Made by a program: the position numbers and the translations under genes. From assembly GCA_025800395.1 (NCBI GenBank), contig JAOXRU010000075.1, forward strand, positions 1-64,000: a stretch of 64,000 bases of DNA, read 5' to 3'. This DNA comes from Flavobacteriaceae bacterium (GTDB taxonomy: Bacteria > Bacteroidota > Bacteroidia > Flavobacteriales > Flavobacteriaceae). Below the pieces are notes generated by a model. It was not told where the DNA came from and searched no databases. It worked only from the letters and a program-made list of their open reading frames with translations. Within the stretch, counting starts at the first letter, position 1. Every line of letters begins with the position of its first letter. Of this stretch, positions 16,433-44,079 are shown one piece after another.

Positions 16433-19400
16433 TTATTCCTGCTCTCTTTTTCTTTTAATCACACCCCAAGTAATGGCGCCCCCAATAAGTAGCACCAATA
16501 ATAGTATGGTGTTTAAATTGTCTTTTAGTACCTGAACTATTGGTTCTTTTTGTACTACTTCTTTTTCTAATACCATTCCCTCTTTATTGGCATTTTCTTT
16601 TGTGGCACCCGTTTTAACTGCATCTATAGCATCTTGGTACTTGGCTTGCATATCGTCTTCTAAAAGAGCAGCTATCATTTCACGAAGCTTGGAGTTGTCG
16701 CAAACAAAACCACTGCATCCGGCTTGGTGTTCTGCAATTAGGTTTGCATGTAAATTGGCGATGTCTTTGGTAACCGCCTGCGTGGGTTGCCAATACCCTT
16801 TGCGAATGGTTTCTAGCATTACTGCCGTCATCTCTTGCAAAGCATAGGGATTGGTGCTTTTAAAAAACTCTAAGGTGCCGTAGTTCTTTTTGTCTTTTAC
16901 ATAAATATCGTAATAGCCTTCCCAAATTTCTTTATCTATAGCAGCTGGCTTCATTACATTCCACCCATAGGTGTCGCGGAAACTCTCTGCAAAATTCTCT
17001 GCAGCGGTTTCTCCTTCTTGCATTTGTGCTTTAATAAACTTTGGGTTAAACAAATTGGTTCGGGTCTCGGTCCAAATGGCTTCTTTAAGGGTTTGTGCTT
17101 TTGGATTGTATCTGTTTCTATAATCGTTAAAATACCCATCTGGGTCTTTTCCTGTGGTTACCCGTATACTAGCGGTTAGTCCGCCCATAAACTCGTATAC
17201 GTGGTCTAGAGATATTGGTCCTGTATCGTTAGAAGACCTAGGGTGCACTACAATTTCGGTATTAGACATCATGGTTTCGAACATGCCTTTTTTGTAAAAA
17301 GCCCAATTATCGCTTCCATAAATTGCTCCCATATTGTTTATATAGGTAGCTGCTATATCTTGCTCTGTTTCCCATTTGTCTCCTTGCTCTACCAAGCCCA
17401 TAATAGCGGTTCCGTAGTTTCCGTTTAATCCGCCAAACACACGAGCGGTAGAAAAACGCTGGGCTTCTTCTGGGGTAAATCCTTTTTCTTTGAGCTGGGC
17501 CTCTGCCAAGAGTACTCCTTCTTTTACATAATTCTTATACGCCTGGTCGTCCTCGGCCTCGGCCGCCAACTTTACCGCCTTATTTATGAGATCTATTCTC
17601 GAAGCGGCCAGATCTCTAAACTGACCCGAGGTTTGCACCAATACATCTATACGTGGTCGTTTTAGTTTTTCGATAGGAATGAGTTTTACATCGTGTACCC
17701 TACCGTAATGGTTGCGCACTGGCTCTACTCCAAGCATATAAAATATTTGTCCGATATTCATCCCTTGGTTTCTAATAAACTCTCCTCCCCATAAGGAGTA
17801 CGCTATTTTCTTGGGAAACTCGCCATGCTTGGCAATATGTTTCTGAAGAATTTGTTCTGCTAAAAGCTGCCCTGTTTCGTAGGCTTCTTTTGTTGGCGTT
17901 ACCTGCTCGTTTATCGCATATAAATTTTTGCCAGTTGGTACAGACAGTGGATTAGAAACGGGATCTCCACCAGAAGAAGGCGCTATATATCCACCATCCA
18001 TACCTTTGACAAATGCATCCAATTCTAAGGTTGGAGATATTCCAATACCTTCTTTGTAATGGTGTATGTCCCAAAGACTGCTTTTGAGCTGCAATAGGGC
18101 AGCAAATATGTTTTTCTCTCTTTGGGTTTCTTTCTCTATACGGTTTTTTACCAATTGTAATTTGGTCTCCAAAGTCTCCGTTGCCGCATTGCTGGAAAGC
18201 AATTGTTTAATAACCGCAATATCGCCCTCATCTCCCGCATTGGCAACAATAGCTTCTTTGTTGTTGCCATAGTATTTAAGCTGACTATGAAGCTCTTTTG
18301 CCTCTACACGATTGTATTTTTGTAGTTGCTTACGCCATTTTTCAGTTTCGGTTCTATAAGCCGTTAACAAGGAATTCATCCTTGGTTTTTCACTTGCTTT
18401 TTTTAGGATATAAGCATCTAACTTGTTTCTGTAGGAAGTAATTTTGTCTTTGGTTTCTTTATTTTCCAAACTGGCAAATACCTGCGCTCTACTTACGCTA
18501 TCTTGAACAAATTGTAGAAATTTTACAAAAGACTGGTTCTCGAAAACAGCTACTTTCCAAGTTACTTTTTTGTTGAAACTTGCAGCAGTTTTAAACTGCT
18601 TAAGACTTTTCTTGTCTAATAGACCACTAAGCTCTTTAAATCCATCCTTTGTTTGTAAATATGCTAAGGCTTTGGCTGTTTTTCTACTTGCCGCCAAATG
18701 CACCATTATTTTCTTTGCCTGCTCTACATCTAATTGCTCCGATTGTCCACTAGACTTAGGTACCATTTTATGTGTTTTTGAATCGTATACCATTGCTTTT
18801 TTGGCAGTAGATTTCTTGTCTTGCGCAGCTGTTTTTTTGCGGGCATAGCTTCCACCATAGTATTCGGATATGGCTGTTTTCTCTAATGCACCGTATTCAT
18901 TTTGCATTTGTTTTAGCAAATTGGTGTTTTCCTTTCCAAACATGGCTTGCGGGGTAGTTTTTCCTGCCAATATTTGCTGAATCATAAAACTTGCTTGTGC
19001 GGTAAAATCCGTAGGGTCTATATCTTCCAAACGACGTACCTGATGATGGTGGTGGTGCCAATGTTTACGCTTCTTGTTCTTGTAGGTGTCTAATTCTTTT
19101 AAAGCGCTGGCTATGGGGTCTATTGCCATCATACGCACTGTTTCTACTTGCTCCTCTTTGGTCTGATTTACACCAAAAGTATGCAAGCCCATAGTAATTT
19201 TCTCTTCTTCCACTTCGTGCAAATAATGGTGTATTCGAGCAACGGTTTCGTTGTTTAAATCGGCTATTTCTTCTTTGGTTAAACCCATATCCTTTTCTAG
19301 ATGCAAGGAATCGATTACCGATAGTATTTTTCTTCTATATGTCTGTTTTAATGCGCCCTCTTGAATGCCATCGTATTTGTGCAGCACTTCTGCTATTTCT

Positions 19401-31953: not shown

Positions 31954-32286
31954 TCAACAGCAATCGTTTTTCTTTTCTATATCTGTGCTTACAAACTCTC
32001 CTAATACCACTTGCATTTGCGCCCAACCTTGCTCATTGATACAGTAGCACACGCTAGTGCCCTCTATGGTTCCTTGCACCAAGCCAGCGTTTTTCAACTC
32101 CTTTAAATGCTGCGATATGGTGGGTTGCGCCAGTCCAATTACATCTACCAAACTTCCGCAAAAGCAACTCTTCATTTTAAACAACTCTTGTAATATAGCC
32201 ACTCGTGCCGGATGCCCCAACACCTTGGCATATCGTGCAACCTCGTTCTGCTTGTTGTTAAAAATTTGTGATTTTGTGGTTCCCAT
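31954..32286 (-). CDS. arsR: ArsR-family arsenic-responsive repressor
   Basis: 110 residues with a winged helix (LAQPTISQHLKELKNAGLVQG). The metalloid site probably involves KSCFCGSLVD (Cys-Phe-Cys at the start of the sensor helix, similar to ELCVCDL) and the C-terminal NDCC. Binding of arsenite would release it from DNA. It stands at the head of the locus, with matching dyads before itself and before arsC. Confidence 0.92.
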   Translation of the reverse strand: MGTTKSQIFNNKQNEVARYAKVLGHPARVAILQELFKMKSCFCGSLVDVIGLAQPTISQHLKELKNAGLVQGTIEGTSVCYCINEQGWAQMQVVLGEFVSTDIEKKNDCC

Positions 32287-32298
32287 TCTTGTTTATTC

Positions 32299-32314
32299 AT
32301 TGCAATATTACGAT
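32299..32314. promoter_or_regulatory. ArsR operator-like dyad before arsR
   Basis: ATTGCAATATTACGAT, identical to its own reverse complement at 12 of 16 positions, begins 13 bp before the arsR start, the proper place for autoregulation. Confidence 0.6.
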
Positions 32315-32478
32315 AATAGCAGCGGTTGCACAAATATTTATTACCCTTTTGTCATATCAAGACAAGGAAAAATAGAATATTCCATCATAGTGTATTTCAA
32401 AAGATACGTAAATGATAGTAATCGTAAGCGAGGCATTTATTCTCTTCTCCTTGGAGTAATGCCCAGAGGAAGGAGGAA

Positions 32479-33177
32479 TTATTCCGCGAGCTCTATAAAC
32501 TGATGAATGCGGATCAATTCTGCCAAAGTACGCACATCGAGCTTTTCATATATATATTTTAGATGGGTTTTCACGGTATGTGTCGATAGGTGTAATTGTC
32601 CCCCTATCTGTTTGTTATCCATACCTTTTGATAGCATATCAATCATTTCACGCGCGCTATCGCTCAACAATCGGTAGCGCTTCCATAATAGATGATGTTT
32701 TCTTTCCAAAGGGCGCAATATCTTTGCTGCCATACCCTCCAATTTCCCAAGTTCTGGCAAAAAACAAATCATATTCAAATAAATAGAACCTTGCAAAAAG
32801 TATTTGGTTGTATGCAAATCTGTCATCTCCCCATTGATACGAATTTGCTGTAGATAGGACAATCCGGCTTTCTCAATGGATTGTTTATAATAATTCTGAA
32901 TCTTATTATTTAGGAAACGAAGTAATTCTACATTGGATATTTCTGGCAAATACTCCATGCCTTTTTCTACTAGAATTTCTATTTCCCTCCCCTTTCCTAT
33001 AAGCTTGGCATCCATGGCCTCATACTGGCTATTCTCTTTGTTGTTGAGATAATATCCGTATGGCAAATAATCCATCAGCTCCTTGAACTTACCAACATCT
33101 TTCCAGTACAAATTTCTCAATCTGTAGGTATTATATTCCAAGTTCAACAATTGTTCTTTTTCTGTATGTAGTTTCAT
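32479..33177 (-). CDS. LuxR-type DNA-binding protein without receiver domain
   Basis: 232 residues. The C-terminal ~60 form a LuxR helix-turn-helix (LSKGMDNKQIGGQLHLSTHTVKTHLKYIYEKLDV). The first ~160 residues are helical and match no sensor family I know; a phosphoacceptor receiver is absent. It starts 3 bp after the alpha/beta-hydrolase stop, so the two are co-expressed, with the regulator second. Confidence 0.83.
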   Translation of the reverse strand: MKLHTEKEQLLNLEYNTYRLRNLYWKDVGKFKELMDYLPYGYYLNNKENSQYEAMDAKLIGKGREIEILVEKGMEYLPEISNVELLRFLNNKIQNYYKQSIEKAGLSYLQQIRINGEMTDLHTTKYFLQGSIYLNMICFLPELGKLEGMAAKILRPLERKHHLLWKRYRLLSDSAREMIDMLSKGMDNKQIGGQLHLSTHTVKTHLKYIYEKLDVRTLAELIRIHQFIELAE

Positions 33178-33180
33178 CGG

Positions 33181-34038
33181 TTATGAAAAACTAGTTTGAA
33201 TCGCCTTTTTCAAAAAAGTATAAAATATATTGCTTTGTTCCAAACTTGGATAATGCCCACATTTTGGTACAATTTCCAACACACTATTTTGCGCCAGTTG
33301 ATGTATCTCTTCTAAATATTCCAAAGACACCAATGGGTCTAAAGCACCATGGAGCATAAACTTCGGCTTATTTGAACCCAAAAACAATGCTCTTTGATCG
33401 CTCCACACGCCATCCATTAGAGATGCGCCTATTCTAGTTCTTACTATTGGTTGTGTCTTACGAAAATCGGATAATATCGTCCCAAGATGTTCTTGGTCGC
33501 ATACTAGTTTTTTCATAAAACCCACAATTTCCTCTCCTTGTTCTCTTGCTTCAAATAGGGGACTGACGTCAAAATCTTTGCGAAATGCATTGGGTAAATC
33601 TCTGGGAATTTCCATTGGTGGTGTTCCCATCAGCACCAGCCCTTTTACCTCTTTTAGGTTTAAACATTCCACGGCCAAATGTCCACCTAGAGAATTGCCT
33701 ACCAACAAACAGTCTCCAATACCATGAATAGTCGTTTGCACCCACTTCAAATAAGTGGCAACTTGTACGGCCTTGGGTGCATCCTCTCTCCCTTTTTCTC
33801 CATGCCCTGGCAGTTCCAAAGCCAATAATGCAGCATCCTCCATACCGCGCTCCAACAAATTTTTATACACCATTCGACTAGACGAATTGCCATGCAACAA
33901 CAATACAGTTCCCTTCGAATCCGATGATGCAGGCACAAAGGTAAGTCTTCCAAAAGAAGCTAATTCTGTAAGTAGCATGTCATTCATTTCTTGATAAACT
34001 ATACACTCAAACATAAAAGAAATGTAGGTAAAATACAA
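33181..34038 (-). CDS. Alpha/beta hydrolase
   Basis: About 268-285 residues. Oxyanion strand TVLLLHGNSSS, nucleophile elbow LVGNSLGGHLA (Ser in the G-N-S-L-G-G context), an acid in HGALDPLVSLEY and the catalytic His in VPKCGHYPSLEQ complete the triad. Substrate unknown. The frame opens at 34038, but the internal ATGs (at 33987 MNDMLLTEL) may be the true start, since the first residues add nothing to the fold. Upstream gene of a pair with the LuxR-type regulator. Confidence 0.85.
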   Translation of the reverse strand: MYFTYISFMFECIVYQEMNDMLLTELASFGRLTFVPASSDSKGTVLLLHGNSSSRMVYKNLLERGMEDAALLALELPGHGEKGREDAPKAVQVATYLKWVQTTIHGIGDCLLVGNSLGGHLAVECLNLKEVKGLVLMGTPPMEIPRDLPNAFRKDFDVSPLFEAREQGEEIVGFMKKLVCDQEHLGTILSDFRKTQPIVRTRIGASLMDGVWSDQRALFLGSNKPKFMLHGALDPLVSLEYLEEIHQLAQNSVLEIVPKCGHYPSLEQSNIFYTFLKKAIQTSFS

Positions 34039-34112
34039 TTTTTATGTGTTATTTCTACCATATTGAGGTCTCATTCTACTTAAATATCGTTTTTACACAA
34101 ATAAAGCTGCTG

Positions 34113-37103
34113 CTACATATCCAATTGCTGGGACCTACCAATAGCAAAACGCGTATCTTCCACCAAAGCTTGTTTTTCCATGCTTTGAATTTCTATACTA
34201 AAAAAACCAAATTCCTCTACCACCTTTCCTGTCAATTTATAGATACCGTGTCCTCGAAAGGGATACTTCTTTACTACTGGAGGAAAATGCACCGTATCTA
34301 TCCAGTCTCCCCAAGCGTCTAGGAAGGTACCAAACACCATTCTCTTACCGTCGGAAGTCTTGGTGTTTTTTAGAGTCACCGAATATCCGTATATGGTTAT
34401 TATCTTCCCTACAAAAAGACACAATTTGGTTGCCTTCAAGCCTTTTTTTAAAGGATACAACAACAGCATAAAGGGATGTTGCAATGCAAAGCCCAACAAT
34501 TCTATTTCATCAAAACAATCTTCAAATCGCTGTAGCGGCAAATCAGGTATCTGAAAAGGTTTTTGCTGTGCTTTAAACAACAATTGCTGTTTCAATTTGG
34601 GGCGTTTTTGCAACAACAAACGCGCATGCCACAAAAGTTTTCGTTTATTGATTTGGGTAAATCGAAATGCATTGATACGAATGAGCACATCCAATTGTTC
34701 GATACTTATAGATACTCTTTCGACAAAATTTTCCAAAGAAGTAAAACTTCCGTTCACTTCTCGTTCGGCAACCAGTTCGGTAACCAATCGATGGTGCAAC
34801 CCTTGTAAAAAATGGAATCCTAGATAAATTGTTTTTCCTGTTATGCTTGTTTCATATCTACTACAATTGATATCTGGTGCTTCGATAATTCCCCCAGACC
34901 TTCGCGCCTCATGCACATAAATTTCTGGTCGATAAAATCCGCCACCGTTGTTGATGGTTGCTACCATATACTCCAAAGGAAAGTAACATTTCAAATACAG
35001 GCTCTGGTAGCTTTCTACAGCATAACTAGCCGAATGTCCTTTGGCAAAGGCATAACCAGCAAAGCTCTCTATCTGTTTCCAAATTTCTGCTACTACGGCA
35101 TCGGGTTCTCCTTGTGCTGCACAATGGGCAAAAAATTTGTCTTTAACCTTATCAAACTCTTCTCTGGAACGATACTTTCCACTCATTCCTCTTCGCAATA
35201 CATCTGCTTCTCCCAAAGACAATCCTCCATAATAATGTGCCACTTTGATCACATCTTCCTGATACACCATAATACCATAGGTATCGGGCATCAAATCCCA
35301 CAAAACTGGATGCGCGTTTTGGCGACGTTCTGGATTTTTGTGCCGCATGATATACTCACGCATCATACCACTCTTAGCCACCCCTGGGCGAATAATTGAG
35401 CTTGCCGCTACCAACCCCAAGTAATTGTCTACCTCTAGCTTGCGCAATAGCATCCGCATGGCAGGAGATTCTACATAAAAACAACCTATACATTGGGCCC
35501 GACTCACCATCTGATTCACATTTTTGTCGGCCATAAACCATTTGACTCTATGCAAATCAATGCTAGGCATATTCGGATGGTTCTTTTGTATGAGTTGTAC
35601 GGCATCTTTGATTTTGGCCAAACCACGTTGTCCAAGTATATCGTATTTGTACAAACCAACATCCTCAGAAATTACCATATCAAAATGCGTGGTTGGATAT
35701 CCTTTGGGTGGAAGATTGGTAGCGGTGAAATAATGTATCGGTTTTTCTGATATCAAAATTCCACCTGCATGTATACTCAGATAGTTGGGCATTCCTTGTA
35801 TATAATTTGCGTACCGATGTGTAAGTTGTGAAGTCGTATCTAGAGTTTCGTACCGATACCTTCCTTTGCTGAGTACATCTATCTCGTGTTTGGGTAATCC
35901 AAACACTTTTCCCAACTCACGCACTGCAGCACTATGCCCAAAGGTATTGTATGTAGCCAATAGGGCTACCTGTCCATTACCTCCAAAGCGCTCGAATATA
36001 TACCGGGTCACATCATCTCTATCGCGCCAAGAAAAATCCAAATCAAAATCGGGCGGATTGGCACGATACAGATTTAGAAAACGCTCAAAATACAAATCCA
36101 GATCGATAGGATCTACATCGGTAATACCAAGCAAATATGCAACTATACTATTGGCTCCACTTCCCCTACCCACATGAAAGTAGCCTTTGCTCTTGGCGTA
36201 TTGTACGATATCCCAATTGATCAGAAAAAACGAAACAAAACCCATTTTGACTATCAAATCCAACTCCTTGGCAATCCGACGACGAATTTTGTCTGTTGTT
36301 TTCTCATATCGATATGCCAAACCTTTATCGCACAGTATTTTTAACTGTCTCCAATCCGATGCTGCATCAGCTCCATAATGCAGTTTGTTTTGTGGTTTTC
36401 GACCTGCCGAAAAATCGAATTCTATCCTACAATGCTCCAGCATTCTTTGACTGTTGTTTAGGATAAAAGCATCCTGCGCAAAATACGCAAGCATTTTTTC
36501 TTTGGAAATCATAGTATCTTCGATACGACCACAGTCCTCTTCCGAGAGTTTGCTCAGTAATATATTTTGATCAATAGCCCGAAACAAACGGTGGATATTA
36601 TAATCTTTCTTATTGCGAAAGCTCACCGTCTGCAATACCACCAGCTTTTCTTTTAGATGATAGAAACCAGAGAATCGCAATTTATTGAGATCTTGCCAAC
36701 GCACTCCTATATACTCGTTGGCAGCAAACTGAGTTTTGTCGATTTCCAATACTTGCTCTAGCGGATATATGATATAACAATCCTCTAGCGGGGGTGCCTG
36801 TTCGGGTATGGCCTTTTTCTCGGACAGATAGGTGGACAAAAACTGGTTTAATTGCATAAAACCAGCATTGTTTTTGGCAATACCAACAAAGTGTTGTTTT
36901 GCTCCCGTTCTAAAATCGATTCCCAATATAGGACGTAGCCCGTACTTAGATGCTAGGCGTACAAAATTGAGACAAGCCGAAGTACTGTTGATATCGGTTA
37001 GCACCAATTGCTCATAGCCATTTTGCTGGGCTAACTCCAACAAGCGCTCCTCCGAGAAAGTTCCGTATCGCAAGGAATAATATGTATGGGTATTGAGCAG
37101 CAC
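34113..37103 (-). CDS. dnaE2: Second DNA polymerase III alpha subunit, DnaE2/error-prone type
   Basis: 996 residues, shorter than replicative DnaE (~1160). The PHP domain has lost metal ligands: NTHTYYSL in place of HxH, and TDINST in place of TDH, so no proofreading nuclease is expected. The polymerase core is intact, with RGSGANSIVAYLLG, the catalytic Asp pair in PDFDLDF and the third Asp in KYDILGQRGL. It is the last gene of the polIV-SRAP-dnaE operon, 3 bp after SRAP. This context matches damage-induced mutagenesis cassettes (imuB-dnaE2 type), so translesion synthesis is inferred. Confidence 0.88.
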   Translation of the reverse strand: MLLNTHTYYSLRYGTFSEERLLELAQQNGYEQLVLTDINSTSACLNFVRLASKYGLRPILGIDFRTGAKQHFVGIAKNNAGFMQLNQFLSTYLSEKKAIPEQAPPLEDCYIIYPLEQVLEIDKTQFAANEYIGVRWQDLNKLRFSGFYHLKEKLVVLQTVSFRNKKDYNIHRLFRAIDQNILLSKLSEEDCGRIEDTMISKEKMLAYFAQDAFILNNSQRMLEHCRIEFDFSAGRKPQNKLHYGADAASDWRQLKILCDKGLAYRYEKTTDKIRRRIAKELDLIVKMGFVSFFLINWDIVQYAKSKGYFHVGRGSGANSIVAYLLGITDVDPIDLDLYFERFLNLYRANPPDFDLDFSWRDRDDVTRYIFERFGGNGQVALLATYNTFGHSAAVRELGKVFGLPKHEIDVLSKGRYRYETLDTTSQLTHRYANYIQGMPNYLSIHAGGILISEKPIHYFTATNLPPKGYPTTHFDMVISEDVGLYKYDILGQRGLAKIKDAVQLIQKNHPNMPSIDLHRVKWFMADKNVNQMVSRAQCIGCFYVESPAMRMLLRKLEVDNYLGLVAASSIIRPGVAKSGMMREYIMRHKNPERRQNAHPVLWDLMPDTYGIMVYQEDVIKVAHYYGGLSLGEADVLRRGMSGKYRSREEFDKVKDKFFAHCAAQGEPDAVVAEIWKQIESFAGYAFAKGHSASYAVESYQSLYLKCYFPLEYMVATINNGGGFYRPEIYVHEARRSGGIIEAPDINCSRYETSITGKTIYLGFHFLQGLHHRLVTELVAEREVNGSFTSLENFVERVSISIEQLDVLIRINAFRFTQINKRKLLWHARLLLQKRPKLKQQLLFKAQQKPFQIPDLPLQRFEDCFDEIELLGFALQHPFMLLLYPLKKGLKATKLCLFVGKIITIYGYSVTLKNTKTSDGKRMVFGTFLDAWGDWIDTVHFPPVVKKYPFRGHGIYKLTGKVVEEFGFFSIEIQSMEKQALVEDTRFAIGRSQQLDM

Positions 37104-37106
37104 TAT

Positions 37107-37916
37107 CTAGTCAAATAAATCTCTTCGTTGCCGTGCTCTGGTTTCTCCCATTCCCAAGAGTTCCAATACCTCTACCGCTTCAATATGCGTAATTTTTTTT
37201 ATCGCTTCTCCTGTTGGACGCAAAGTCTGAAGATCCTTGTTTCTAGGATTTTTGATGCTTTTATCTATCGGAAATGCATTCCATTGTTTTGTATCTTGAG
37301 GTCGCAACAAGGCCAATGCCTCATCCAAAGGCGTCTTCGGGTCGAGCCAAATATTGCGATCGGCCTCTGCAATAACTATCGGTATTCTAGCATGATCTAT
37401 CATTTTTGTAGCAGCATTAGGAGCTGCGGTGGTGATAATAGCAAAAGAAGAAACAATTTCCCCAGTATTTACATCTACCCATTGGTCGTAAATTCCTGCA
37501 AAGGTAAAGCAACTGAAATCGTTTTTAAATACCAAATAAGGCTCGTTGAGCTTCGCTACACTAGGCCCTTCTATATAGCTACTAGCGATGACCAAGCAAC
37601 GCTGTGAACGTATTGGCTTTCGAAACATTGGTTTTTGAATAATTCCTTTAGCTCCACGATAAGCCGCACTATTTTCTTTGTTGAAATCGCCTTCCGTACG
37701 TGCGTTGAATACATACATGCGTTTTTTTGCCCAATGAGGGGTAAGTCCAAACTGAAACCATTGTTCGCAAGTCGCATCTGGATAACACAATACTGGTGCC
37801 ATACTCCCAGGCCCCAAATTGACCAAGCCATCAAACAAATGCTTTTCGATAATGCGAATCGACAATTCTTTTTCTACAGTTTCTATCTTTTTTGTAATAT
37901 TATACCTTCCACACAT
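37107..37916 (-). CDS. SRAP-domain protein (YedK/HMCES family)
   Basis: 269 residues. The SRAP family cross-links its N-terminal Cys to abasic sites in single-stranded DNA and so shields them. All key residues are seen: Cys2 in MCGRYN, Asn/Arg/Glu in FNARTEGD, Glu in ASSYIEGP and His in DHARIPIVI. Between two translesion polymerases, it would protect lesions met by the fork. Gap to polymerase IV 9 bp and to dnaE 3 bp, so one transcript. Confidence 0.92.
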   Translation of the reverse strand: MCGRYNITKKIETVEKELSIRIIEKHLFDGLVNLGPGSMAPVLCYPDATCEQWFQFGLTPHWAKKRMYVFNARTEGDFNKENSAAYRGAKGIIQKPMFRKPIRSQRCLVIASSYIEGPSVAKLNEPYLVFKNDFSCFTFAGIYDQWVDVNTGEIVSSFAIITTAAPNAATKMIDHARIPIVIAEADRNIWLDPKTPLDEALALLRPQDTKQWNAFPIDKSIKNPRNKDLQTLRPTGEAIKKITHIEAVEVLELLGMGETRARQRRDLFD

Positions 37917-37925
37917 AGCTGTTTT

Positions 37926-39140
37926 TTAGCGGGTTCGATGTGCCAATACTATTGGCGGTTCTCCATTGAAAGGATCAAAATCATTTCCAATGCTACGTGC
38001 TCCAAAAGTACTCGCACGCATTACTGTTCTACTTCCATATCGTTCTCGAATACGATCCATAGCCCGATACAATTGTACCGTTTTGCTGGCATCCTCAAAA
38101 AGAGATATCTGATAATTGCCTCCTGTAAGATCGCTAAATCGAACTCCTATCAGACGAATACGCAATCGACGATCATACAATTTGTGAAACAATTCCAAGG
38201 TAGTGGGCAACAAAATATGATCCGCTGCTGTATAAGGAATCTTCTGTTGTTTGCTATAGGTATTAAAATCCGAATAGCGGATTTTTACCGATACACAGGC
38301 TGCTACTTTATTGGCCTTTCGCAACTTATAGGCCAGATTTTCTACCATAGCCGATAAGGTGGTTTCCAATTTGGGAATATCGATGGTGTCTTTGCCAAAA
38401 GTGCGTTCGTTCGAAATCGACTTGCGCTCATGATAAGCCACTACAGGACTCTTATCGACGCCATTGGCACGCTCCCACATGAGCAAACCATGCTTCCCAA
38501 ACACTTGCTGCATGGCTTCTACTGGCATTTGCTGTATATGGGACACCTGTTTTAGACCCAAATTGCACAATTGTTGAAACGTCTTGTCTCCTATCATCGG
38601 AATTTTTTTCACAGACAATGGTGCCAAAAAAATTTTCTCCAATCCGTGCGCCACTTTTAGCTGGTTGTTGGGTTTTGCCTCGTTGGTTGCTACCTTGGAT
38701 ACCGTTTTGTTGACAGCCAAACCAAAGGAAATAGGCAAACCCGTTTCTTTAATAACCGCTTGTCGCATCTCGCTAGCATACTTATAAATTCCATGAAAAC
38801 GATCCATGCCCGTCATATCCGCATAAAACTCATCAATACTAGATTTTTCCAATAGAGGCACCCGCTCCCTCAAAATATCGGTTACTTCTCTAGAAAACTT
38901 GGTATAAGTTCCTGCATTGCCCCGTATGACAACAGCCTCCGGACAAAGTACTCTCGCCATTTTCATCGGCATACCAGAATGCACGCCAAAAGGACGCGCC
39001 TCATAACTGGCCGCAGATACCACTCCCCTACCGCCAGTACCCCCTATAAGCACTGGCCTCCCCTGTAAACGACTGTCTAACAGACGCTCGCAAGAAACAA
39101 AAAAGGCATCCAAATCCATATGTAATATCGAACGATCCAT
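37926..39140 (-). CDS. dinB: Y-family DNA polymerase IV
   Basis: 404 residues. Catalytic acids are retained (Asp9 in HMDLDAFF; Asp103-Glu104 in SIDEFY), so it is an active polymerase and not an ImuB-type non-catalytic partner. The palm, thumb (helix-hairpin-helix around IPMIGDKTFQQL) and little-finger domains follow in order. QISLFED near residue 350 is a beta-clamp binding motif. The gene starts at 39140, only 4 bp beyond its -7 element, which implies a leaderless or near-leaderless mRNA. First gene of the cassette. Confidence 0.92.
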   Translation of the reverse strand: MDRSILHMDLDAFFVSCERLLDSRLQGRPVLIGGTGGRGVVSAASYEARPFGVHSGMPMKMARVLCPEAVVIRGNAGTYTKFSREVTDILRERVPLLEKSSIDEFYADMTGMDRFHGIYKYASEMRQAVIKETGLPISFGLAVNKTVSKVATNEAKPNNQLKVAHGLEKIFLAPLSVKKIPMIGDKTFQQLCNLGLKQVSHIQQMPVEAMQQVFGKHGLLMWERANGVDKSPVVAYHERKSISNERTFGKDTIDIPKLETTLSAMVENLAYKLRKANKVAACVSVKIRYSDFNTYSKQQKIPYTAADHILLPTTLELFHKLYDRRLRIRLIGVRFSDLTGGNYQISLFEDASKTVQLYRAMDRIRERYGSRTVMRASTFGARSIGNDFDPFNGEPPIVLAHRTR

Positions 39141-39144
39141 GATA

Positions 39145-39175
39145 CAAAACTAAGTACTTTTTGGATTATTTCCAA
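39145..39175 (-). promoter_or_regulatory. Leftward promoter of the dinB-SRAP-dnaE operon
   Basis: On the minus strand TTG (39175-39173), 20 bp, TAGTTTTG (39152-39145). This is near the Bacteroidota consensus. The distal TTG lies inside operator 1. Confidence 0.7.
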
Positions 39176-39177
39176 AA
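39159..39177. promoter_or_regulatory. Operator 1 of the LexA-like switch
   Basis: TTTTGGA-N5-TCCAAAA, perfect 7-bp arms. It covers the distal element of the dinB promoter. Its centre lies 19 bp from that of operator 2. Confidence 0.8.
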
Positions 39178-39179
39178 TT

Positions 39180-39194
39180 TTGGATATATTCCAA
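39180..39194. promoter_or_regulatory. Operator 2 of the LexA-like switch
   Basis: TTGGA-TATAT-TCCAA, same half-sites as operator 1. It covers the distal TTG of the rightward promoter of the repressor gene. Confidence 0.8.
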
Positions 39195-39210
39195 TTTATT
39201 TCTATATTTG
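39180..39210 (+). promoter_or_regulatory. Rightward promoter of the LexA-like repressor gene
   Basis: TTG (39180-39182), 20 bp, TATATTTG (39203-39210). The same geometry as the dinB promoter, mirrored. A second -7-like TATTTTTG occurs at 39257-39264. Confidence 0.65.
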
Positions 39211-39343
39211 AATATCGCTTTCCTATTGAAAAGCAAATCATTTGATCGGGAATCTATATTTTTGTGTTTTTTCTGTATTTGAAATATTCTACCAATTGTG
39301 GAATGGTACAAAAATGCCCATCACGATATTAATTTTTTCACCA

Positions 39344-40096
39344 ATGGACACTAGCATCACACAACAGCGATTTAAGGAAGTTCGAGAGCAACTACAGCTA
39401 ACCCAAGCGGCTTTTGGCAAACATCTTGGACTCAGTTCCTCTACAGCCGATATAGAAAGAGGGCGCACCAAGATTTCTGGAGAGGTCACTATGTTACTTC
39501 TAAAAGACTACCATATCAATCCTTTATGGTTATTTGGACATAGCAACAAGAAACTGCTCAATCCGTCTTCGGTAGACACCATGCCCAAAGCCATTACCGT
39601 AGATCAAGATGGACACGAAAACATTGTAATGGTACCTGCAAAAGCTGCCGCTGGCTATGGTAACAATATAGGAGATAGCACCTATATGAATCGATTACCT
39701 GCTTTTAGCTTTCCCCTTCCAGAATACCGCAACGCATCATTTAGAGGTTTTCAAATTAGTGGCGATAGCATGACGCCCTTGGTCAACTCTGGAGATTGGG
39801 TATTGGCAAAAGCAGTTGCATCTTTTCAAGAAGTTGTAGATAATCAGGTGTACATTATTGTAGAAAGTGATAGTATCCGCCTCAAAAAACTCCAAAAACA
39901 AGAACAGGGAAAGGTGTTAAACCTTATTTCTCTCAACCCAGAATATGCACCAACTGCTACAGCCTCCGAAAACATATTGGAGCTATGGGAATACCATTCT
40001 AAGATTAGTTTTGGCATAGAAAAGATACAGGGGCTCACCTTAGAAAAAGTATATGATGAGGTAAAAGAGATAAAAGCCAAGGTAGAAAGGCTCTAA
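39344..40096 (+). CDS. LexA/CI-like self-cleaving repressor (XRE HTH plus S24 peptidase)
   Basis: 251 residues from the ATG at 39344 (MDTSITQQ); the open frame extends to 39242, but that part lacks domain character. N-terminal XRE helix-turn-helix (LQLTQAAFGKHLGLSSSTADIERG), then an S24 domain with cleavage site Ala103-Gly104 (KAAAGYG), nucleophile Ser142 (SGDSMTP) and Lys181 (IRLKKL), at spacings like those in LexA. On RecA-ssDNA signals it is expected to cut itself and free the DNA. It faces the mutagenesis operon, and twin operators lie between them, so it very probably represses both. Confidence 0.9.
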   Translation: MDTSITQQRFKEVREQLQLTQAAFGKHLGLSSSTADIERGRTKISGEVTMLLLKDYHINPLWLFGHSNKKLLNPSSVDTMPKAITVDQDGHENIVMVPAKAAAGYGNNIGDSTYMNRLPAFSFPLPEYRNASFRGFQISGDSMTPLVNSGDWVLAKAVASFQEVVDNQVYIIVESDSIRLKKLQKQEQGKVLNLISLNPEYAPTATASENILELWEYHSKISFGIEKIQGLTLEKVYDEVKEIKAKVERL

Positions 40097-40128
40097 TTGC
40101 TTCAAAGCACAAAGGCATATGTGTGTTT

Positions 40129-40602
40129 TCACATCTCCTCTTTTGCATAAACCAACTCAAAATAAATACACACTATAGTCATATCTTCGGAAAATTGCGC
40201 TCCGTGAGACTCCATTTCTCTGGTGTAAAATGCTTGATGTACTTTTTTCCAATACGCCAAAGATTTGTCTCCCTCTCCTTCTGCAAAGGCAAAATCGGCA
40301 TCTATTTTTTTATAGGGTCGGTAGATGAGGTCGGTAATTTGTATGATTGCCATTGCCCTGCCATCCCAATTGGTGACTATTTCCAAATCTCCGATTTGAG
40401 GTAAAGGTTCTTTTTCGTTTTCAAACCACCACAACGAAGGAGCAGTAGCGCATTTGTCGCCCGACAGCACCAAGTTTGCACAATCGTCGGCATCGTACTG
40501 GTTGTCGCAAAAATAATAAGAAATTGGCAGTTCTCTATTGGCATATTTCGGATGCTTGGCTACAAATGCCTCCCACATCTTATGCACGCTTGGATCCACC
40601 AC
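40129..40602 (-). CDS. ASCH-domain protein
   Basis: 157 residues. ASCH proteins have a PUA-like beta barrel and are thought to bind RNA or act on modified nucleosides. Family features: LSGDKCATAPSLWWFE, then EPLPQIGDLEIVTNWDGRAMAIIQI and a late FAFAEGEGDKSLAYWKKVH. It starts with GTG overlapping the glutathione peroxidase stop by one base, so the two are coupled. Function in the cell is unknown. Confidence 0.85.
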   Translation of the reverse strand: MVDPSVHKMWEAFVAKHPKYANRELPISYYFCDNQYDADDCANLVLSGDKCATAPSLWWFENEKEPLPQIGDLEIVTNWDGRAMAIIQITDLIYRPYKKIDADFAFAEGEGDKSLAYWKKVHQAFYTREMESHGAQFSEDMTIVCIYFELVYAKEEM

Positions 40603-41135
40603 TACTGCAAATGTTTCAGGATTTTATTGCTCAACGGACCAGTAAAAGAATACCAATAATCTACCAGATTACCTTGTGGATCTATCAAATACTTTTGAAA
40701 ATTCCACTTCACCGATGAATTCTTTTTTCCATTCTTTTCCTTCTTGGTGAGCCATGTATACAAAGGATGTTGTTCTTGTCCTTTCACTGCAATTTTTTCG
40801 GTAATCGGAAAAGACACTCCATAATTGGCTTCGCAAAAGGTTTGTATCTCTTGGGCACTTCCAGGTTCTTGCTTCCCAAATTGGTTGCAAGGCACTCCGA
40901 TGACCACTAATTTGTCCTCAAATCGCTCGTATAAAGTCTGTAGATCCTTATACTGGGGTGTAAAACCACATTTGGAGGCAACATTTACAAACAAAATGTA
41001 CTTTTCTTTGAAGCCACCAAGATCCATAGGCTTCCCAGTCAAACTATTTATTTTTATTTCATAAATAGTTTGGGACTGCGCATTGAACGGTAATGTCATT
41101 GAAAAAACAATTACTAATAATATTAATCTCCTCAT
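40602..41135 (-). CDS. Glutathione peroxidase-family thiol peroxidase, exported
   Basis: 177 residues from the internal ATG at 41135 (MRRLILLVIVFSMTLPFNAQS), which gives a clear signal peptide; the open frame starts at 41162. Peroxidatic Cys in NVASKCGFTPQY, second motif VIGVPCNQFGKQEPG and the Trp in WNFQKY define the GPx family; a Cys replaces selenocysteine. It removes peroxides, most likely with thioredoxin as reductant, in the periplasm. Coupled with the ASCH gene. Confidence 0.92.
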   Translation of the reverse strand: MRRLILLVIVFSMTLPFNAQSQTIYEIKINSLTGKPMDLGGFKEKYILFVNVASKCGFTPQYKDLQTLYERFEDKLVVIGVPCNQFGKQEPGSAQEIQTFCEANYGVSFPITEKIAVKGQEQHPLYTWLTKKEKNGKKNSSVKWNFQKYLIDPQGNLVDYWYSFTGPLSNKILKHLQ

Positions 41136-41222
41136 AGCTAAAAACACTTTAGTGAAGTGCAAGCTACTAAAAATAAAAGATAATGAAAATACTCTAAAGT
41201 AGTTTTATACCATACAACACCA

Positions 41223-41348
41223 TTAAATAATTCCTGTAACTGACAAACCGATACATACAACCACGCTTACCAAAACCAATACCAAAACACCAACCATCAG
41301 GCTCAGTGTCGTATTCAAAATTCTCGTTCCAAAAGATAGTGTACTCAT
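41223..41348 (-). CDS. Putative 41-residue single-pass membrane protein
   Basis: Starts with ATG, ends TAA. A soluble N-terminal MSTLSFGTRILNTTLSL leads into the helix MVGVLVLVLVSVVVCIGLSV. It lies in an otherwise gene-poor stretch and is below usual length limits. Composition suits a real small membrane protein, but it may be chance; no family is recognised. Confidence 0.4.
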   Translation of the reverse strand: MSTLSFGTRILNTTLSLMVGVLVLVLVSVVVCIGLSVTGII

Positions 41349-41622
41349 AATGATTCTATTAGTTTATATTAAAAATACAACCAATCCAGACTATTGCCTA
41401 AAAAGGTCTCGATTATTAGATATCTGGCAAAAAATGACAGACCAGTACCATTCTCTAGTAGTTACTAGTAGACAAAAGGTAATTTCTATGGGTATATTAT
41501 ACCCTACTCGTGACAAGTAATCAAAAGACTATGATAGGTATTCTCTTCCTGCAATTTATTATAAAAATTGGAGAAATAAGATACCTTATTTTTTGCAAAT
41601 AAGCAAATGATACCGAAAAACG
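41349..41622. other. AT-rich region with no recognised gene
   Basis: Sequence between the putative small protein and the galE terminator. I see no open frame of quality and no clear dyads. Confidence 0.4.
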
Positions 41623-41623
41623 A

Positions 41624-41660
41624 CAAAAAAACGCAGTCAAAATTGCAATTTTGACTGCGT
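41624..41660 (-). terminator. Terminator downstream of galE
   Basis: A perfect 30-bp palindrome (arms ACGCAGTCAAAATTG and its complement) at 41631-41660, with a T run of seven on the minus strand (41630-41624). It lies 60 bp past the galE stop. Confidence 0.85.
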
Positions 41661-41719
41661 CTGTACTATTGTTTTTTCAACAAAGCCTAGTGGCTGTTGC
41701 CATATTATGTCGGCAAATA

Positions 41720-42736
41720 CTAACTTCTAATCTTTTGTTCCCACTTCCATGCAGAGGACATCGCTTGATCTAAAGAGGAAACTGCCTGCCAACCCAACTC
41801 TGTATTGGCCTTGGTAGTATCGGCATAGGCCTCCATAATATCGCCAGCTCTACGACCGACAACCTTATAAGGCAATTTGGTTCCAGAAACTTTTTCGAAA
41901 CTTTCTATCACTTCCATTACCGAACTTCCCTTACCCGTACCTACATTGAATACTTCGTAATTGGTCTTATTCTGATTCTCCAACAATCTTTCCAAAGCCA
42001 CCACATGGGCTTTTGCCAAATCTACCACATGTATGTAATCGCGTATAGCGGTACCATCTGGGGTGTCATAATCCTCGCCAAAAACCTGCAATTCTTCACG
42101 AAGCCCCACTCCTGTTTGGGTGATAAACGGCACCAAATTTTGTGGAACTCCTTTAGGTAATTCCCCTATTTCGGCAGAAGGATGACTTCCCATAGGATTA
42201 AAATATCGCAAGGCTATAGCTTTTAGCTGTTGATTAACTGCACAAGTATCTCGAATAATTTCCTCTCCAATTTGCTTGGTATTACCATATGGCGATTCGG
42301 CCACCTTTACTGGAGCATCCTCCGTTATTGGCATTTTATCGGCCTGACCATATACGGTACAAGAAGAGCTAAATATAAAACTCGCTTCCTCTTTGGCTTG
42401 CAACTCTTGTAGCAAATACACCAAAGTGTTGATATTGTTTTCATAATACATCAAAGGTTGTTCTACACTTTCTCCTACCGCTTTTGAAGCAGCAAAATGA
42501 ATCACTCCTCGTATATCGTTGTGGGTGCTGAAAAACTTTTGCACTGCGCTTTTTTCCCTTAAATCCATTTTGACAAACACTGGCTTCTTGCCAGAGATAG
42601 CCGCAATACCGTCCAATACAGCCTCGTCGGAATTGGATAAATCATCGACTATAATCACTTCAAAACCTTTGGCTTGCAATTCCACCACTGTATGTGACCC
42701 AATAAAACCTAAACCACCAGTTACTAATATTTTCAT
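41720..42736 (-). CDS. galE: UDP-glucose 4-epimerase
   Basis: 338 residues, near the standard length. NAD-binding GGLGFIGSHTV at the N-terminus, SSSCTVYGQ with Ser, and the catalytic Tyr-x3-Lys in SPYGNTKQIGEE. Interconverts UDP-glucose and UDP-galactose for envelope sugars. It follows the DegT aminotransferase on the same strand, 117 bp apart, and ends at a strong terminator. Confidence 0.96.
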   Translation of the reverse strand: MKILVTGGLGFIGSHTVVELQAKGFEVIIVDDLSNSDEAVLDGIAAISGKKPVFVKMDLREKSAVQKFFSTHNDIRGVIHFAASKAVGESVEQPLMYYENNINTLVYLLQELQAKEEASFIFSSSCTVYGQADKMPITEDAPVKVAESPYGNTKQIGEEIIRDTCAVNQQLKAIALRYFNPMGSHPSAEIGELPKGVPQNLVPFITQTGVGLREELQVFGEDYDTPDGTAIRDYIHVVDLAKAHVVALERLLENQNKTNYEVFNVGTGKGSSVMEVIESFEKVSGTKLPYKVVGRRAGDIMEAYADTTKANTELGWQAVSSLDQAMSSAWKWEQKIRS

Positions 42737-42853
42737 ATATATTATTTGAGTTTCAACAAAATCATTACCGTGTACTATTATACCTCATAATTCCTGCCGA
42801 AAAATAAGCACAATTTTTAATTGGGAACAATTTCTGTTGCAATACTCTACAGA

Positions 42854-43993
42854 TTAACCGTTATTTTCGATAAAATCAATTACAGTCTTCGCTATAAATG
42901 CAATTTGCTCCTCCTCCAATTCGGTATGCATTGGCAAAGAAATCACCTCTTGCACCAAACGATTGGTCACTTCAAAATCGGATTCTACAAAACGGTCCGA
43001 AGCATATGCTTTTTGACTATGTAAGGGTATCGGATAATACACACCACAAGGAATATTGTTTTCTTGTAGATGCGTTACCAAAGCATCTCTCTTCCCATTT
43101 TTAATCAACAAAGTATATTGATGAAATACATGCGAATCCGCATTTCCATATCGGTAAGGAGTAACTATATGTTTGGTATTGGCAAAAGCCTGGTCATAGG
43201 CATCTGCAGCAGCACTTCTTTTTTGATTGTATGCATCCAAATTGGGGAGTTTGGCTCGCAAAACTACTGCTTGTAAAGAATCCAAACGAGAATTTACTCC
43301 CACCACATCATGGTGGTATCTCTTATACATTCCATGGTTCACCATACCTCTAATAGTGTGGGCCAAATCGTCATCATTGGTAAATATGGCGCCTCCATCT
43401 CCATAACAGCCCAAATTTTTGGACGGGAAAAAGGAAGTAGCACCTACTGTACCAATTGCTCCCGTTTTTTTTGTACTCCCATCCGAAAAAGTATAAGTAG
43501 CCCCAATACCTTGGGCATTATCCTCTACAACAGCTACTTTGTGTTTGCTCGCTACTTCCATAATGGCATCCATGTTTGCACATTGCCCAAATAAATGCAC
43601 AGGCACGATAGCTTTGGTTTTTGGCGTGATGGCAGCCTCTACAGCCTTTGGATCGATATTGAAAGTATCTGGCTCTACATCTACCAAAACTGGGGTAAAC
43701 CCCAATAGGGCAATAACTTCTACCGTAGCAGCAAAAGTAAAGTCGGCTGTGATTACCTCATCGCCAGGGCGCAAACCCAATCCCATCATTGCAATCTGCA
43801 GAGCATCGGTACCATTGGCACATGGTATCACATGTTTTACCCCTAAATAGGACTCCAATTCTGCCTGAAATGCATGTACTTCAGGTCCATTTATAAATGC
43901 ACTAGACTCCAATACTTCTGTAAACTTTGTATTGATCTGATCTTTTATTCCTTGATATTGGCCTTTTAAATCGACCATTTGGATTTTTTTCAT
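42854..43993 (-). CDS. DegT/DnrJ/EryC1/StrS-family sugar aminotransferase
   Basis: 379 residues from the ATG at 43993 (MKKIQMVDLKGQY); the frame opens at 44053. PLP-dependent: the lysine that holds PLP is in SFFPSKNLGCYGDGGA; VVEDNAQGIGA carries the Asp that binds the ring nitrogen. Transfers an amino group to a nucleotide-linked keto sugar for LPS or O-antigen. Neighbouring galE, waaA and rfbCD support an envelope role. It is divergent from waaA. Confidence 0.93.
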   Translation of the reverse strand: MKKIQMVDLKGQYQGIKDQINTKFTEVLESSAFINGPEVHAFQAELESYLGVKHVIPCANGTDALQIAMMGLGLRPGDEVITADFTFAATVEVIALLGFTPVLVDVEPDTFNIDPKAVEAAITPKTKAIVPVHLFGQCANMDAIMEVASKHKVAVVEDNAQGIGATYTFSDGSTKKTGAIGTVGATSFFPSKNLGCYGDGGAIFTNDDDLAHTIRGMVNHGMYKRYHHDVVGVNSRLDSLQAVVLRAKLPNLDAYNQKRSAAADAYDQAFANTKHIVTPYRYGNADSHVFHQYTLLIKNGKRDALVTHLQENNIPCGVYYPIPLHSQKAYASDRFVESDFEVTNRLVQEVISLPMHTELEEEQIAFIAKTVIDFIENNG

Positions 43994-44079
43994 GAAGTGT
44001 AAGTTTGATATGCAAAAATAAACAACTCCGACAAAGGATTTATCAAAAAGCAACGTATTTTAGCTCCAAAGAACTGCAA

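Follow-up and report, generated by a model that had tools for sequence, protein, structure and literature searches.

A putative GGA-N5-TCC operator pair between a non-canonical LexA-type repressor gene and a dinB-SRAP-dnaE operon in a Flavobacteriaceae genome

Does the intergenic gap between a repressor gene and a divergent set of polymerase genes, at positions 39141–39343 of the window (the whole stretch of 64,000 nucleotides analysed), carry a switch for inducible mutagenesis and, if so, is the switch of a new kind? The earlier note proposed a self-contained LexA-like switch with a new box, in a phylum usually said to lack LexA. The latter statement is outdated, as Sanchez-Osuna et al. described in 2021 non-canonical LexA proteins of Bacteroidetes, in two groups, which combine a CI-like HTH with an S24 domain bearing Ala-Gly and Ser-Lys residues (PMC8565304). 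The GGA-N5-TCC box was published in the same work, with specific binding demonstrated by gel shifts and mutated boxes, and induction by mitomycin C was shown in Salegentibacter agarivorans (PMC8565304). The window sequence TTGGA-N5-TCCAA contains GGA-N5-TCC with its usual A/T-rich flanks, and it is therefore not a new box. In our view, the locus very probably represents this published kind of SOS switch. It comprises the following features:

39344..40096, + strand: XRE-S24 repressor (non-canonical LexA, GGA-N5-TCC group), 250 aa, with the Ala103-Gly104 scissile bond, Ser142 and Lys181
39203..39210, + strand: rightward -7 element TATATTTG, beginning 16 bp away from the box 2 centre
39180..39194, no strand: putative operator box 2 (TTGGA-TATAT-TCCAA), covering the TTG at -33 of the repressor's rightward promoter
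39159..39177, no strand: putative operator box 1 (TTTTGGA-TTATT-TCCAAAA), covering the TTG at -33 of dinB's leftward promoter
39145..39152, - strand: leftward -7 element TAGTTTTG, read from the sequence
37926..39140, - strand: dinB-type Y-family polymerase, 404 aa (PF00817, PF11799), carrying the active-enzyme motifs DxD and SxDE
37107..37916, - strand: SRAP (SOS response associated peptidase) protein, 269 aa (PF02586, 1.6e-36), 9 bp after dinB
34113..37103, - strand: DnaE-type DNA polymerase III alpha, 996 aa, with GTG as start codon, separated from the SRAP gene by 3 bp

The repressor has all the cleavage residues ascribed to it beforehand, and Ala103, Gly104, Ser142 and Lys181 are invariant across 14 orthologues. 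The S24 domain is C-terminal (PF00717, 9.5e-12), and the N-terminal region matches the CI/XRE-type HTH_3 family (PF01381, 1.5e-4) with 22.2 bits, just short of the gathering cut-off of 23.0. The winged helix LexA_DNA_bind (PF01726) was not found in the repressor, the N-terminal part of which matches the HTH_3 type only, and a profile search against solved structures returned weak HTH matches only, plus one lectin. In the phylogeny, which contained a Salegentibacter sp. orthologue (48% identity to the window protein) with the published reference protein itself left out, the repressor grouped in the GGA clade, together with the Salegentibacter and Mesonia proteins, and the close orthologues all fell on one side of a strongly supported branch (100/99). 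This clade spans many Flavobacteriaceae. The nearest relatives in the tree are from a Bacteroidota MAG (L077) and a genome of another family of the same order (L017), followed by Saprospiraceae, and in these, too, dinB adjoins the repressor gene.

The leftward operon had been described as encoding two error-prone polymerases and an SRAP protein. The Y-family polymerase, the SRAP protein and a DnaE-type polymerase are all present, but DnaE scored 453.8 bits against the NCBIfam error-prone subfamily PRK05672, under the 939-bit cut-off, and the label "error-prone" for dnaE therefore rests on context. The same dinB-SRAP-dnaE order was found in a Saprospiraceae MAG (L090). In the Saprospiraceae MAG L127, dnaE is placed outside the dinB operon, on the same side as the repressor gene.

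Both dyads lie between the divergent repressor and dinB-SRAP-dnaE genes as the earlier note had reported, with centres at 39168 and 39187, 19 bp apart. Conservation of the dyads in relatives, which that note had itself named as the test of its reading, was examined in two samples, and the dyads are kept in both. Strong orthologues (E below 1e-60) were identified in 13 of 60 related genomes, with 45–55% identity, and all 13 have two to five GGA-N5-TCC boxes upstream; none of the 16 weaker paralogues in this sample has such a box. A scan of genome contigs confirmed at least 584 related stretches, and in the best 80 loci of these, taken from named genomes, GGA-N5-TCC was present upstream in 78, the control patterns scoring 3 (AGG-N5-CCT) and 0 (N6 and N4 spacers) in the same 80. 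One of the two loci without a box (L122) has a run of N as its upstream region. CTAA-N5-TTAG was absent ahead of the repressor gene both at the window locus and in all of these best 80 loci. The 208 boxes collected have spacers and flanks almost entirely of A/T, with T the commonest base directly before GGA (172/208) and A directly after TCC in 139/208. In the arrays at the repressor gene, the spacings between centres are mainly 18 or 19, then 22 or 23 bp.

The divergent TTG-N20-TAnnTTTG promoters, with one TTG inside each box, also read as claimed: the rightward promoter consists of TTG at 39180–39182, N20 and TATATTTG at 39203–39210, and the leftward promoter of TTG at 39175–39173, N20 and TAGTTTTG at 39152–39145. 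At 66 of 92 loci, the start of TAnnTTTG is 13–17 bp away from the centre of the repressor-proximal box (16 bp in the window), other offsets being found 0–1 times. In the window, 28 bp separate the first box (box 1) from the dinB start, versus 30–33 bp in Dyadobacter. A transcript from the leftward TAGTTTTG would be expected to begin at, or a few bases from, the dinB ATG (39140). The end of this -7 element is 4 nt ahead of the start codon (window 39138–39152), and the dinB message may therefore be leaderless. The predicted repressor leader (window 39210–39344) is about 130 nt long, with most relatives having shorter ones; the actual start may lie elsewhere, since there is an in-frame ATG at 39314 and a further TAnnTTTG at 39257.

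A pattern requiring tandem boxes occurred at a single place in the 4.17-Mb genome, the window locus, with 0 for the reversed control, and in this genome the regulon therefore seems reduced to this one cassette, on a count that could miss sites because the assembly is fragmented (667 contigs, 94.6% complete, 7.7% contamination) and with a pattern that would overlook single boxes with unusual flanks. No boxes were found in this genome upstream of recA, the product of which is encoded there, or of the second dinB (C486). Two other patterns were rejected as guides to the genome-wide regulon: the exact 15-mer TTGGA-N5-TCCAA, for which 12 of the 13 other copies examined lay inside ORFs, and a looser AT-rich pattern, which gave 19 sites versus 7 for its control and, outside the locus, 13 sites in ORFs and 4 intergenic sites without an adjoining SOS gene. 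A GGA-N5-TCC-like site at G000:C36:10784-10800 (L053) sits roughly 200 bp into an ORF resembling RadC.

In the related genomes carrying an orthologue, up to four tandem-box places were found per genome, and the control gave zero in 40/40 genomes; G021, without a strong orthologue, has one match, which falls within a long ORF (L190). At the places read away from the repressor gene, tandem boxes stand upstream of dinB-dnaE (L189, L201) and of genes named by resemblance as SplB-like radical SAM genes (L184, L188, L202, L209) and a DnaQ-like exonuclease (L186). The targets match the published regulon, in which dinB is dominant, often with dnaE, alongside SRAP, SplB, a COG0847 exonuclease and the repressor itself (PMC8565304). 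The tandem boxes read away from the repressor gene are 19 or 20 bp apart, centre to centre, and mostly 19. The self-contained character that had been attributed to the switch is thus plausible in this genome, given the sole tandem-box site and the lack of boxes at recA and the second dinB, but the family as a whole does not share it, because several relatives hold more than one such locus.

Three other readings of the locus were weighed. The boxes could be chance AT-rich palindromes, and the genome does hold 18 copies of TTGGA-N5-TCCAA, mostly within ORFs among those examined; in the window there are 3 copies versus 0.11 expected, the third (18031–18045) within a long ORF. Chance is nevertheless hardly credible for the pair in the gap. 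Two copies of TTGGA-N5-TCCAA were obtained in 0 of 20,000 dinucleotide shuffles of 39141–39343, as against 35 of 20,000 for one copy, and two or more GGA-N5-TCC were obtained in 6 of 20,000. The tandem pair is unique in 4.17 Mb, and the conservation of the box in 78 of the best 80 relatives already contradicts this reading.

The repressor could alternatively belong to a prophage or mobile element, a CI-type protein with its own operators standing beside dinB by accident. Its N-terminal domain is indeed CI/XRE-like, and an ancient phage origin was proposed for these repressors by the 2021 authors (PMC8565304), but Dyadobacter, Saprospiraceae and Sinomicrobium show the repressor, boxes and dinB in the same arrangement, none of the ORFs at 32000–44000 is conspicuously phage-like, and the breadth of the clade across Flavobacteriaceae argues in the same direction, so that we regard this origin as very unlikely. 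Equally improbable, in our judgement, is that the boxes only autoregulate the repressor, with dinB transcribed free of its control. Most Flavobacteriaceae in the set do have boxes upstream of a repressor gene that dinB does not adjoin, and several of those inspected have instead, by sequence resemblance only, an apparent radical SAM/UDG-linked operon divergent from it (TIGR03916, for the UDG-linked radical SAM operon, gave no match in the genome studied here). Against autoregulation alone, box 1 lies over the TTG-N20-TAGTTTTG promoter at its short distance from the dinB start, Dyadobacter has its first box similarly placed, and where relatives have dinB at another place, it is preceded by its own pair of tandem boxes (L189, L201).

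The conservation of the protein, the boxes and the gene partners gives strong support, at the level of sequence, to a LexA-like, S24-controlled mutagenesis switch. In undamaged cells, repressor dimers would occupy both GGA-N5-TCC boxes, each covering the -33 region of one divergent promoter, and expression of both the repressor gene and dinB-SRAP-dnaE would be low. After DNA damage, RecA-ssDNA filaments would promote self-cleavage at Ala103-Gly104 by Ser142/Lys181, and the cleaved repressor would leave the DNA, allowing the translesion polymerases, SRAP and new repressor to be made; once repair is complete, fresh repressor would close both promoters. We infer RecA-driven cleavage, repression by promoter occlusion and joint occupancy of both boxes in this organism, and RecA-mediated cleavage was likewise inferred from residues in the 2021 paper (PMC8565304). 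A tentative extension, about which we are more doubtful than confident, is that the multi-box arrays, with their phased spacing (at the repressor gene 18/19 and then 22/23 bp, elsewhere mostly 19 bp), are cooperative units resembling lambda operators, and that the switch has been reduced in this genome to one locus at which each box shuts one divergent promoter.

The same genome contains a second XRE-S24-like gene (L157, G000:C66:63400-64158; L073 reversed), with CTAA-N5-TTAG boxes 61 and 153 bp upstream. Its product lacks the Ala-Gly bond, Ser and Lys and therefore looks unable to self-cleave. The cleavage residues are also absent from L158–L161, from four related genomes (40–69% identity), which have at least one CTAA-N5-TTAG upstream and, in one case, both boxes at the same distances. 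L157–L161 may possibly constitute a non-cleavable repressor family acting on the other SOS box.

The window locus is thus a good further example of a known system and overturns nothing, the LexA gap in Bacteroidota having been closed in 2021 (PMC8565304). The GGA-N5-TCC system was published mainly from Flavobacteriaceae, and conservation supports its occurrence in Saprospiraceae and Dyadobacter too, where repressor and dinB genes are arranged alike; the phased box arrays and the fixed place of the boxes relative to Bacteroidota promoters are small additions. The published GGA-N5-TCC group (S. agarivorans WP_075324850.1; PMC8565304) resembles the window in its HTH and S24 domains, its Ala-Gly/Ser/Lys residues, its boxes preceding both the repressor gene and dinB-dnaE, and the inclusion of SRAP in the network. 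It differs in that published Flavobacteriaceae regulons are large, whereas the window repressor is divergent from one dinB-SRAP-dnaE operon, the only tandem-box site. The CTAA-N5-TTAG group (Pontibacter actiniarum WP_025606010.1) shares the superfamily and regulatory logic but has a different box. Canonical LexA (E. coli, B. subtilis) is likewise an autoregulated repressor of translesion polymerases with an S24 domain and the same cleavage residues, but it binds another box through the winged LexA_DNA_bind domain rather than a lambda-repressor-like helix-turn-helix (HTH_3). HdiR (Lactococcus/Streptococcus), UmuDAb (Acinetobacter) and FddR (Francisella, PMC13148647) are S24 repressors of small SOS-like gene sets from separate lineages, and the Francisella proteins group apart from the Bacteroidetes regulators (PMC13148647); HdiR and UmuDAb, like the window system, are centred on error-prone polymerases.
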